Source of the DNA: Deltaproteobacteria bacterium
GTDB lineage: Bacteria > UBA10199 > DSSB01 > JACPFA01
Length of the DNA: 64,000 nucleotides
Direction of reading: 5' to 3'
Assembly: GCA_016183235.1 (NCBI GenBank)
Contig: JACPFA010000014.1
Span: 1-64,000, forward strand
Shown: one piece after another, positions 58,873 to 61,964 of the stretch
Layout of the letters: the number at the start of each line of letters is the position of its first letter
Numbering within the stretch: the stretch's first letter is position 1
Program-made: the position numbers and the translations under genes
Notes under the pieces: generated by a model
Database searches by the model: none
What the model was told of the DNA's origin: nothing
What the model saw: only the letters and a program-made list of their open reading frames with translations

Positions 58873-58951
58873 TTAGTGTAATTTTTTTAAGTTGATTAGA
58901 TAACAGACTTGTTTTACACTAAAAATAATATATTTTATATATTTAGTGTAA
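58873..58951. promoter_or_regulatory. Three TTAGTGTAA sites upstream of the GSU2403-like pair
   Basis: TTAGTGTAA occurs at 58873-58881 and 58943-58951, and its reverse complement at 58914-58922. The second and third form a larger inverted repeat (TTACACTAAA/TTTAGTGTAA) spanning an AT-rich centre. The last site ends 6 bp before the ATG at 58958. This arrangement fits cooperative binding of an autorepressor. Confidence 0.55.
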
Positions 58952-58957
58952 TTACTT

Positions 58958-59278
58958 ATGGAAACAATTATTATCGCGCTAAAAGAGGAGCTAATTGAAG
59001 CCAAAAAACTGGTAAAAAAATATGCCGATGAATTAGCAAAACTCCCCAAAGGTACTTTTTTTATTCGCAAGCTTGGGCAAAACCAGTATGGGTATATTAC
59101 CCGTTCCGAACATGGCCAAATCAAACAAGAATATTTAGGTTTAATAAAAGATGATGAGCTTGCAAGCGTAAAAGAAAAATTTAAACGGCAAAAAAAAATA
59201 AAAGCTTTGCTTAAACAAACAAAAATACAATTAGCCTTTTTACAAAAGGCCTTACGCCATGCTAACAAAGAAAGTTAA
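58958..59278 (+). CDS. Helical 106-aa partner of a GSU2403-like nucleotidyltransferase
   Basis: The protein is mostly charged helix. It contains KKYADELAKLPKGTFFIRKL and GQNQYGYITRSEHGQIKQEY, then a lysine-rich coiled-coil-like C-terminus. The central aromatic segment (FFIRKLGQNQYGYITRSEHG) looks like a small beta-hairpin. It overlaps the following nucleotidyltransferase gene by 20 bp and lies right behind three operator-like sites, so it may be the regulatory member of the pair. The family name is not recognised with certainty. Confidence 0.6.
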   Translation: METIIIALKEELIEAKKLVKKYADELAKLPKGTFFIRKLGQNQYGYITRSEHGQIKQEYLGLIKDDELASVKEKFKRQKKIKALLKQTKIQLAFLQKALRHANKES

Positions 59279-59945
59279 AGAAGTACTCAACAGCTTACAA
59301 AAAGCAGGTGTACTTGAACAATGTATGCTTATTGGAAGTTGGTGTAACCATTTTTACCAATTTTATTTTAAGAACATCAATTACAAGCCTGTCATCCAAA
59401 CCTTGGATATCGACTTTTTGATTCCCGATGTAAAAAAGAAAACGGTTAAGCCTATTTCTGTTGAACAATTGCTAAAAGACTTAGATTTTGAAACTGATTT
59501 TGGTGGATCAGGTTGGGTTAGATATATTCATCCTGAATTGCGTGTAGAATTTTTAGCACCAAGATTGGGGCTACAACCAGATACACCCAAATTTGTGGCT
59601 TTTTTCAAGATAAATGCCATGCCACTACGACACACCGCCACACTAACTGAGCATGTCATTGAAGTTGAAGGTGATGGGATAAAAGTTAAATTACCACATC
59701 CTGCAGCTTTTGCATTACATAAACTATTCATTTCAGAAAGACGTAAGGAGCTAGGCAAAAAAATACGCGACTTCGAAAGTGCGATAAGGGTTTTAGAAAG
59801 TTTAAAATCCCTCGATAAATATAATGAAATTAACAAAATATGGCTAACCATGACGAAAAAAGAACGAAAGGGTGTTTTAATAGCATTGAAAAACAATAAA
59901 ACAATCCACGAAGTTGAGTGGTTAGTTAATTTGCTTAAAAATTAA
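59259..59945 (+). CDS. GSU2403-like nucleotidyltransferase-fold protein
   Basis: The 228-residue protein has CMLIGSWCNHFYQFYF followed by QTLDIDFLIPD, a nucleotidyltransferase-like G-S plus D-x-D metal site, and VRYIHPELRVEFLAPRLG supplying a third acidic residue. LPHPAAFALHKLFISERRKE follows, as in GSU2403/MNT-like proteins. The ORF overlaps the preceding helical gene by 20 bp. Such pairs are found in mobile or defence-associated regions; here they lie near a putative integration site. Enzymatic activity is inferred from the motif. Confidence 0.6.
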   Translation: MLTKKVKEVLNSLQKAGVLEQCMLIGSWCNHFYQFYFKNINYKPVIQTLDIDFLIPDVKKKTVKPISVEQLLKDLDFETDFGGSGWVRYIHPELRVEFLAPRLGLQPDTPKFVAFFKINAMPLRHTATLTEHVIEVEGDGIKVKLPHPAAFALHKLFISERRKELGKKIRDFESAIRVLESLKSLDKYNEINKIWLTMTKKERKGVLIALKNNKTIHEVEWLVNLLKN

Positions 59946-59977: not shown

Positions 59978-60565
59978 CTAATCCTCAACTTTTAATTTTA
60001 ATCCTAATGCATTTAAAATCTTTAACAAATTCCCAAAACGAATATCTCTTTTAGCTTTAAAATTACTAAGAGAAACTTGAGTAAGCCCCGTTAATTCTGA
60101 AACCTGTCTTAGTGTCAGTTTCTGTTTTGCTATAGCGGAAAAAACAATATCGACTGCATCAACCAAAGTGGTAATTGTCTTATCTTGTTTATTGATCGTC
60201 TTAGTAAGATTAGCTTTTTTAAGCAGAGAGTAGAATTTGTTATCAAGCTCAGCAAGTTTTTGCATATTGTCTTTTTGTAATCTCGACAACATTAAAAAAT
60301 GGGTCACTAACTGCCAATCGACTAAATGAGTATCCTGAATAAAATAACTATTTCTTTGTTTATTCCACTGCCCAGGGAAAAGCTGTTGAAAAGATAGCAA
60401 CCCTTGATCATCCTCTTCAACCGAATCAAAATGGATAATCATTTGGTTGCTGCTTGGAATCGTATAACGACCCACCTGACTTTTGATTGAAAGTTGTAGG
60501 GCATTAATAAACTGCGTAATTTCTTCTGGAGAAGGGGATTTTTGATTTGACTCTGTCAATTTCAT
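59978..60565 (-). CDS. HTH protein paired with a PI4K/HipA-like kinase
   Basis: The 195-residue protein ends in an XRE-like helix-turn-helix (LTLRQVSELTGLTQVSLSNF, then KAKRDIRFGNLLKILNALGL). The N-terminal 140 residues form an unrecognised helical domain that includes a CBS-free, strand-containing stretch (QVGRYTIPSSNQMIIHFDSV). It follows the kinase gene by 1 bp, the reverse of hipB-hipA order. As in HipBA it may bind the upstream promoter and neutralise the kinase, but the extended N-terminus is unusual for an antitoxin. Confidence 0.7.
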   Translation of the reverse strand: MKLTESNQKSPSPEEITQFINALQLSIKSQVGRYTIPSSNQMIIHFDSVEEDDQGLLSFQQLFPGQWNKQRNSYFIQDTHLVDWQLVTHFLMLSRLQKDNMQKLAELDNKFYSLLKKANLTKTINKQDKTITTLVDAVDIVFSAIAKQKLTLRQVSELTGLTQVSLSNFKAKRDIRFGNLLKILNALGLKLKVED

Positions 60566-60566
60566 A

Positions 60567-61301
60567 TTATGACTTACTTCGATATAAATTGATAAGGTCG
60601 ATTAAACAGTTCACTTGTTTAAGACTCAATAACCTATTGGACAATGCCTCTTTTTCTTCTTCATTCTTTAAGGGGACTAATTTTATTAATTTCTTCATGG
60701 AAAGATTCTGAATGATATCAAAAACTGGTGTAAATACCTTTTTAGTAAGTTCTCGAGGATAAGCAATTTCAAAGACTTTTAAATAATCAGGCAGCGTCCC
60801 ATCATATTTCAAAAAAGCATGCCCAGAATCAATAAGAATTATTTTCGAATTCACATAGTCATAAAGATAATTGGCATCGTGTCGATCTATCTGCGCGCTT
60901 AACCAATCAAACAAGGTACAATCAAAGATGTTCTCAGTTTTGAATTTCATAACTCCTTGGCTAGTTGAATATTGATGGGCATCTGGAAAATCTAACCATT
61001 GCTGTAAGGTCGTGTAGGAATCAAATAAAACAAGTTGGGGGACATTCAATTTAAGAAAAAGTGCCAATCGATAAGCCCAATATTCCCGTTCAGCTAACGT
61101 GCCATACTTAGGATTAACTTGGCATTCCTGATGATTTCTTTTGGAAGAACGTTTTAAAAATAATTTGCCAAGCTTGGTTTGATATAATTCCTGAACACTG
61201 GTTTGCCCACGGGAAGGATAATGCTTTATGGCAAGAGGAAGCTGAACCCCTTCTTCTAAGAGTTTCACAATCTGGGCCGAATCCTTGGGAAAGCGAAACA
61301 T
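60567..61301 (-). CDS. PI3/4-kinase/HipA-like protein kinase
   Basis: The 244-residue protein shows the landmarks of a small kinase: GKLFLK with K50, AEREYWAYRLALFLKLNVPQ with E71, the catalytic D139-R-H-x-x-N144 in SAQIDRHDANYLYD, and a metal-binding D158 in IILIDSGHAF. D-R-H-x-x-N followed by I-D-x-G-x-A-F is the PI3/4-kinase and HipA-superfamily pattern, but the chain is much shorter than HipA (about 440 residues). It could phosphorylate a protein, as HipA or HipT does. The HTH gene follows at once. It starts from a promoter with a leaderless layout. Confidence 0.68.
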   Translation of the reverse strand: MFRFPKDSAQIVKLLEEGVQLPLAIKHYPSRGQTSVQELYQTKLGKLFLKRSSKRNHQECQVNPKYGTLAEREYWAYRLALFLKLNVPQLVLFDSYTTLQQWLDFPDAHQYSTSQGVMKFKTENIFDCTLFDWLSAQIDRHDANYLYDYVNSKIILIDSGHAFLKYDGTLPDYLKVFEIAYPRELTKKVFTPVFDIIQNLSMKKLIKLVPLKNEEEKEALSNRLLSLKQVNCLIDLINLYRSKS

Positions 61302-61310
61302 AGTATATAA

Positions 61311-61339
61311 ATAATACTTTATAAAGAATAGTTTATCAA
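61311..61339 (-). promoter_or_regulatory. Promoter with leaderless layout for the kinase/HTH pair
   Basis: On the leftward strand TTGATA (61339-61334), a 17-bp spacer and TATTAT (61316-61311) precede the ATG (61301) by nine bases, so the transcript would have at most a few leader bases. The spacer contains the palindrome CTTTATAAAG, a plausible operator for the HTH protein. Confidence 0.5.
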
Positions 61340-61468
61340 GTTATTTTGTATAGCACGGTTTTGGAAGGTCACCCCAGGGGCTAATGGGTGATCCCTATTT
61401 TGTTCCTTCAGGTAAAATTAATTGTCGCGCTTGAAGAAAGATCTTTTCTAAGACTTTTTGGTAGTGGG

Positions 61469-61920: not shown

Positions 61921-61964
61921 CGGGGAGACAGGATTTGAACCTGCGACCTCCAGCTCCCAAAGCT
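61921..61964 (-). pseudogene. 3' fragment of tRNA-Pro(TGG): putative attachment site
   Basis: Read leftward, the segment gives AGC-TTTGGGA-GCTGG (anticodon loop with TGG), the variable loop, the T-arm GCAGGTTCAAATCCTGT and the acceptor strand CTCCCCG. The 5' half of a tRNA is absent: bases beyond 61964 do not complete the anticodon stem, and there is no D-arm or GGGG acceptor strand. A 44-bp 3' tRNA half is the usual footprint left by site-specific integration. The regions on both sides carry mobile-type genes. Confidence 0.7.

Follow-up and report, generated by a model that had tools for sequence, protein, structure and literature searches.

A compact PI3/PI4K-like kinase paired with a HipB-type HTH protein: a candidate toxin-antitoxin-like module of one bacterial phylum

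Introduction

Ten gene organisations have been described for the Hip kinases (Gerdes et al. 2021, PMC8262856). The order of hipBA is known in reverse, in hipAB and hipEB, and short kinases are known as well, with HipT and HipG/M/I/J ranging from 279 to 346 aa (PMC8262856). None of these organisations combines a 244-residue kinase outside HipA_C, the reversed order and an HTH partner with the N-terminal domain described below (PMC8262856). Here we analyse a gene pair with these features, found in a window of 64,000 nucleotides (contig JACPFA010000014.1, positions 1 to 64,000). The PADLOC models of known defence systems gave no match to the pair, and a literature search limited to open-licence papers found no paper on the module.

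Results

The two genes lie on the (-) strand of the window, separated by 1 nt. The first (60567..61301, (-)) encodes a protein of 244 aa, a compact kinase of the PI3/PI4K-HipA superfamily and the putative toxin; the second (59978..60565, (-)) encodes a protein of 195 aa, the putative antitoxin and autorepressor. Both reading frames are present where the original prediction had placed them and both are genuine genes rather than chance ORFs, since they have conserved orthologues: 12 other intact copies of the kinase, at 51-58% identity to the window protein, and 13 of the HTH protein, at 32-40%. We searched a kinase profile against 385 genomes, 46 from the host phylum (the host class is the entire phylum in this collection) and 339 others. 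The kinase occurs in 14 of the 46 and the full-length HTH protein in the identical 14; the 339 genomes outside the phylum gave zero matches. In a contig collection a single-sequence query returned nothing and an alignment query returned nine loci, all matching known phylum loci, and no relatives were found in viral contigs, phages or plasmids. Within the collections searched, the module is restricted to one phylum. The HTH gene always lies directly downstream of the kinase or of a kinase remnant, with junctions that range between loci from a 2-nt gap to a 23-nt overlap, a 4-nt ATGA overlap being the commonest. Adjacency, coupling and co-inheritance are those of a type II toxin-antitoxin pair. 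The reversal with respect to hipBA, noted before in the window, holds in all loci, and a comparison of neighbourhoods bears out that there is no third gene as in hipBST: only the kinase and HTH genes are common to the loci.

K50, R72, E73, D139, R140, H141, A143, N144 and D158 are invariant in all 13 intact kinases. K50 (61152..61154, (-)) would be the ATP-anchoring lysine; the catalytic loop D139-R-H-D-A-N144 (60870..60887, (-)) varies only at position 142, which is D or N; and D158 (60828..60830, (-)), the predicted Mg-binding Asp, sits in a LIDSGH or LIDSAH motif. The D-x-H-x-x-N loop and the Mg-binding Asp of the HipA family are thus both in place, and the product of gene 1 is predicted to be an active kinase. 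Upstream, the loop Y28-P-S-R-G-Q-T34 (61200..61220, (-)), invariant except for T34S in one of the 13, occupies the position of the Gly-rich loop of HipA kinases, and its S30 and T/S34 are candidate autophosphorylation sites. The catalytic set originally listed for these 244 residues stood for Lys50, D139-R-H-(D/N)-A-N144 and Asp158 and had to be corrected for Glu71: because E73 is invariant and E71 is replaced by Q in one sequence (L011), the alpha-C glutamate that partners K50 is probably E73. The AlphaFold model of the kinase is confident (pLDDT 85, pTM 0.85) and has its first kinase strands at residues 36-51. Its nearest solved folds are VPS34, COQ8A, actin-fragmin kinase, PI3K-gamma and PI4KIII-beta and, among bacterial proteins, CtkA of Helicobacter, all at modest TM-scores. 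The predicted fold is PI3K/PI4K/CtkA-like. One detail of the original description as a PI4K/HipA-like kinase changes, the nearest sequence kin being HipA_2 and SCO1664, not HipA or HipT.

This placement comes from several profile comparisons. All 13 members match phrog_3162 (best E 1.3e-6), and the best profile match is HipA_2 (PF20613; hhalign probability 85, E 5.7e-6), which covers about half of the protein. SCO1664-like kinases follow (probability 71, E 3.6e-5, collinear over 214 columns), and canonical HipA from the same phylum matches over residues 68-145 (probability 35, E 3.9e-4). Against HipA_C (PF07804) the window kinase scores 11.9 bits, below the gathering score of 30.5 bits; such sub-threshold matches are found in 12 of the 13 members (best E 0.00099), and the module kinases are absent from the HipA_C matches across the 46 phylum genomes. 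The N-subdomain-1 of HipA, about 100 aa before the kinase core, is missing from a protein of only 244 aa. The scores for the SCO1664 family (TIGR03843; 12.7 bits, NCBIfam cutoff 172.4) and for the Pfam PI3_PI4_kinase family are also below their curated cut-offs. Fam20C was considered as a parent family and rejected, with 16.4 of 26.8 bits in Pfam and an E of 0.01 in a PDB profile search pointing to a shared superfamily only, and Pfam matches to Mannitol_dh_C and others are at chance level. Judged by these profiles, the kinase belongs to the PI3/PI4K-HipA superfamily as a compact member outside every named family tested, with HipA_2 and SCO1664 as its apparent closest relatives; none of the characterised HipA or HipT subfamilies proved closely similar.

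Outside the phylum, a family-profile search recovered weak kin that are SCO1664-like and share the motif GTL-x-x-RE; a crude motif scan of their surroundings found no HTH partner. Several unrelated genomes carry such compact kinases near a DUF3090-like gene (L143, L144, L146, L147, L150), and we take the neighbours of SCO1664 kinases to be a DUF3090-like gene and a histidine phosphatase. These kinases are well suited as a cousin family with which to compare the module. Inside the phylum, canonical HipA genes are present in 24 of the 46 genomes, and since they coexist with the module in the same genomes, the module is an additional system and not the local form of HipA. The host itself has six HipA_C matches in a 2.6-Mb genome (G000), a large number of HipA kinases for a bacterium that is uncultured. 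In another genome, the module directly adjoins a canonical hipA of full length (405 aa), beyond which lies an HTH match (L004 2421-3638 / L058, G029:C48).

The HTH protein has a HipB-type XRE HTH domain at residues 145-191 (59993..60133, (-); HTH_3, E 2e-7). With a profile of the 14 proteins, E. coli HipB is the best of all solved chains (E 1.4e-5), in an alignment that extends towards the C-terminal strand of HipB, and HipB chains are the top matches of a fold search. The HTH is HipB-like by these comparisons, with scores for the NCBIfam HipB and Y4mF models (15.7 of 71.65 bits and 13.6 of 79) below cutoff. The N-terminus that was originally called unknown is conserved, and the first 130 residues or so have no Pfam match. 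Its domain (residues ~13-94; 60284..60529, (-)) belongs to no known family and is predicted to run helix-strand-strand-helix-strand-strand-helix, then helices, in a model (pLDDT 89) whose pTM of 0.61 leaves the relative placement of the domains unsure. A full-length fold search did not identify it, and partial matches to HicB were unconvincing (TM about 0.3-0.4). It is, as far as sequence and model can tell, a new domain of about 100 residues, and a candidate for the part that binds the kinase. Conservation is 30% in this domain versus 45% in the HTH domain, and the kinase is better conserved than its partner.

The promoter layout described before as leaderless, with a palindrome over the spacer, was seen again. 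A -35 hexamer TTGATA (61334..61339, (-)) and a -10 hexamer TATTAT (61311..61316, (-)), 17 nt apart, end 9 nt before the kinase ATG, so that a leaderless or near-leaderless start is predicted, and a putative operator of tandem imperfect palindromes, ATAAASTATASTTTAT (61308..61341, (-)), overlaps the -35, the spacer and the -10. Inverted repeats lie upstream of the kinase in all 13 loci with readable upstream DNA. Most are arrays of this type; two loci have variants (L007 and L013), and in two genomes of family f21 (L009 and L011) the array is further upstream and the leader longer. We scanned the 46 genomes for the array pattern, allowing two mismatches and using the reversed pattern as control, and obtained 22 overlapping matches at ten places versus 0. 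At nine of these places an intact kinase follows directly. The tenth (G025:C106) looked like an orphan operator but is a module scar, as its HTH remnant shows. As the array occurs only at modules or at the scar, it belongs to the module and is not a regulon site. The arrangement TTGATA-N17-TATNNT recurs in nine of the 13 loci, its -10 separated from the ATG by 6-9 nt, from which a leaderless or near-leaderless kinase mRNA is predicted. In those nine the kinase start has no Shine-Dalgarno sequence beyond AAG, itself part of the array; a Shine-Dalgarno core of 4-5 nt precedes the HTH start in ten of the 13 loci, the window copy having only AAG. A generic promoter scan of the region gave no excess over shuffles, and the promoter claim rests for that reason on conservation across loci. 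The element would let the pair repress its own promoter.

Three genomes carry decayed copies. In G021 kinase codons ~62-214 are deleted, followed by a terminal frameshift, and the HTH gene is intact. In the G025 scar the array lies ~220 bp from a fragment that still encodes residues 1-19 of the HTH protein, with 74% identity to the copy of G009 of the same family, and the kinase is gone. In G043 the HTH remnant has an internal deletion and the kinase is missing. A kinase without an HTH gene was found in none of the 46 phylum genomes. Decay that starts with the kinase is what is expected of a toxin-antitoxin pair, although the events are few (one case with an intact antitoxin and two scars). 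G021 also carries a ThyX gene with an apparent intein that includes a homing-endonuclease-like part (L014 1-1431, G021:C46; VHNC junction before KMPIFVARQW).

Neighbouring genes differ between loci (HisG, TatA/TatC, an LD-carboxypeptidase-like gene and others, named by eye). In both gene trees the copies of G018 (f12), G019 (f13) and G026 (f16) form a supported cluster that, against the family labels, stands apart from G023 (f12) and G039 (f13); most other branches lack resolution. Because this supported cluster crosses families in both trees, the two genes have probably been transferred together from family to family.

Two other features lie around the module in the host. Starting 0.6 kb upstream of the kinase is an apparently integrated element of ~6.5 kb that contains a resolvase gene (G000:C14 61922-68432); the 27-bp 3' end of tRNA-Pro is repeated at 61922 and 68406, and the intact tRNA-Pro(TGG) is at 68406. 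On the other side, convergent with the module, lies another unit of two genes (58958-59945, (+)). Its products are a protein of 106 aa and a nucleotidyltransferase of the NTP_transf_8 family (E 3e-21), and it may be a further TA-like or MNT-type pair. A long, AT-rich inverted repeat, ACTAAAAATAATATATTTTATATATTTAGT, precedes the unit, with a promoter region at ~58915-58955.

Discussion

Our preferred reading, to which we give a probability of roughly 0.62, is a two-gene autoregulated type II toxin-antitoxin-like module that follows the logic of HipBA with a different kinase. The toxin would be the product of gene 1, a minimal ATP-dependent kinase of PI3/PI4K-like type; most likely it is a protein Ser/Thr kinase and acts by inactivating a housekeeping target. 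The new N-terminal domain of the gene 2 product would bind and restrain this kinase, and the HipB-type HTH dimer would bind the tandem palindromes over the promoter, turning the operon off. The kinase start codon would lie at the predicted transcription start, with no ribosome-binding site, and the HTH gene, which usually has one, overlaps the kinase stop; we propose that more antitoxin than toxin is made as a result. The original idea of a candidate new kinase toxin-antitoxin module gained from the conserved synteny, the module-specific operator, the exchange across families and the loss of the kinase first, and was revised as to the nearest kin and the position of the glutamate. Against a toxin-antitoxin reading stands the lack of copies in the phages, viral contigs and plasmids searched, since many known modules have such copies. 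An enzyme that acts on a specific substrate would likewise explain the higher conservation of the kinase.

The same data could be read as a non-toxic, self-regulating signalling pair, in which the kinase phosphorylates its HTH partner on cue and relieves the repression of the operon. An operator that is local to the module and a kinase that is the better conserved protein both suit such a pair. However, the operator occurs at no other site in the genome, so that such signalling would have no regulon to act on, and the loss of the kinase with the HTH gene kept, together with the exchange of the pair across families, fits a toxin-antitoxin module better; we find the signalling pair unlikely, though worth keeping in mind. 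Alternatively, gene 1 could encode a kinase of lipids or small molecules that is controlled by a local repressor of its own and acts in metabolism or detoxification. The closest folds include PI3K, PI4K and COQ8A, and we know of no toxin in the cousin family SCO1664. Yet the loci have no conserved metabolic neighbour, a HipB-like HTH protein is tightly coupled to the kinase in every one of them, and the superfamily readily phosphorylates proteins, as do actin-fragmin kinase, CtkA, HipA and Fam20C relatives. This makes a metabolic kinase improbable.

That the pair is simply a HipA-family member in reversed order, such as hipAB or hipEB, seems to us very improbable. The gene order would agree with it (PMC8262856), as would the sub-threshold HipA_C matches in 12 of 13 members and the canonical-HipA match over residues 68-145. 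However, the HipA_C score stays below the gathering score, 244 aa leave no room for N-subdomain-1, the profile probability is 35 for canonical HipA against 85 for HipA_2 and 71 for the SCO1664-like kinases, and canonical HipA genes coexist in the same genomes.

If the toxin-antitoxin reading is right, kinase toxins extend beyond the homologues of HipA; 244 residues of PI4K-like core would make a minimal kinase toxin, and the partner would be a new type of kinase inhibitor. A bolder version, which we put forward as doubtful, is that the HipBA logic arose a second time, from a non-HipA PI3/PI4K-like kinase and a HipB-type repressor with a new kinase-inhibiting domain, the leaderless toxin mRNA setting the toxin:antitoxin ratio through the way ribosomes handle leaderless starts. 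About a dozen loci define the operator closely, which makes repressor binding directly testable. The predicted pairing of a leaderless toxin gene with an antitoxin gene that has a ribosome-binding site would likewise allow a connection between leaderless translation and the dose of toxin to be tested.

Compared with known systems, the best profile match, HipA_2 (PF20613)/phrog_3162, has a different N-lobe. The SCO1664 family (TIGR03843), the best kin outside the phylum, resembles the module kinase in size (~245-264 aa) but has no HTH partner that we could see and a DRKxGH catalytic loop. hipEB and hipAB put the kinase before the HTH gene, as the module does, but HipE keeps N-subdomain-1 (PMC8262856); HipG/M/I/J are short, but have 279-321 aa and Stl-like, resolvase-like or HipS/HIRAN partners (PMC8262856). 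All these Hip kinases are homologous to HipA by sequence, whereas the module kinase scores below the HipA_C gathering score. HipT shares a core kinase without N-subdomain-1 and a Ser/Thr in a loop near the N-terminus, but it has 291-346 aa (PMC8262856), and the module differs from hipBST in its two genes, without HipS, and in its reversed order. With hipBA the module shares two genes, a kinase and a HipB-type HTH protein, palindromic operators over the promoter and the catalytic D-x-H-x-x-N with the Mg-binding Asp; it differs in placing the kinase first, in a length of 244 aa versus 423-444 aa for HipA proteins (PMC8262856), without N-subdomain-1, in LIDSAH replacing the YD motif of HipA, and in the new N-terminal domain of its putative antitoxin.
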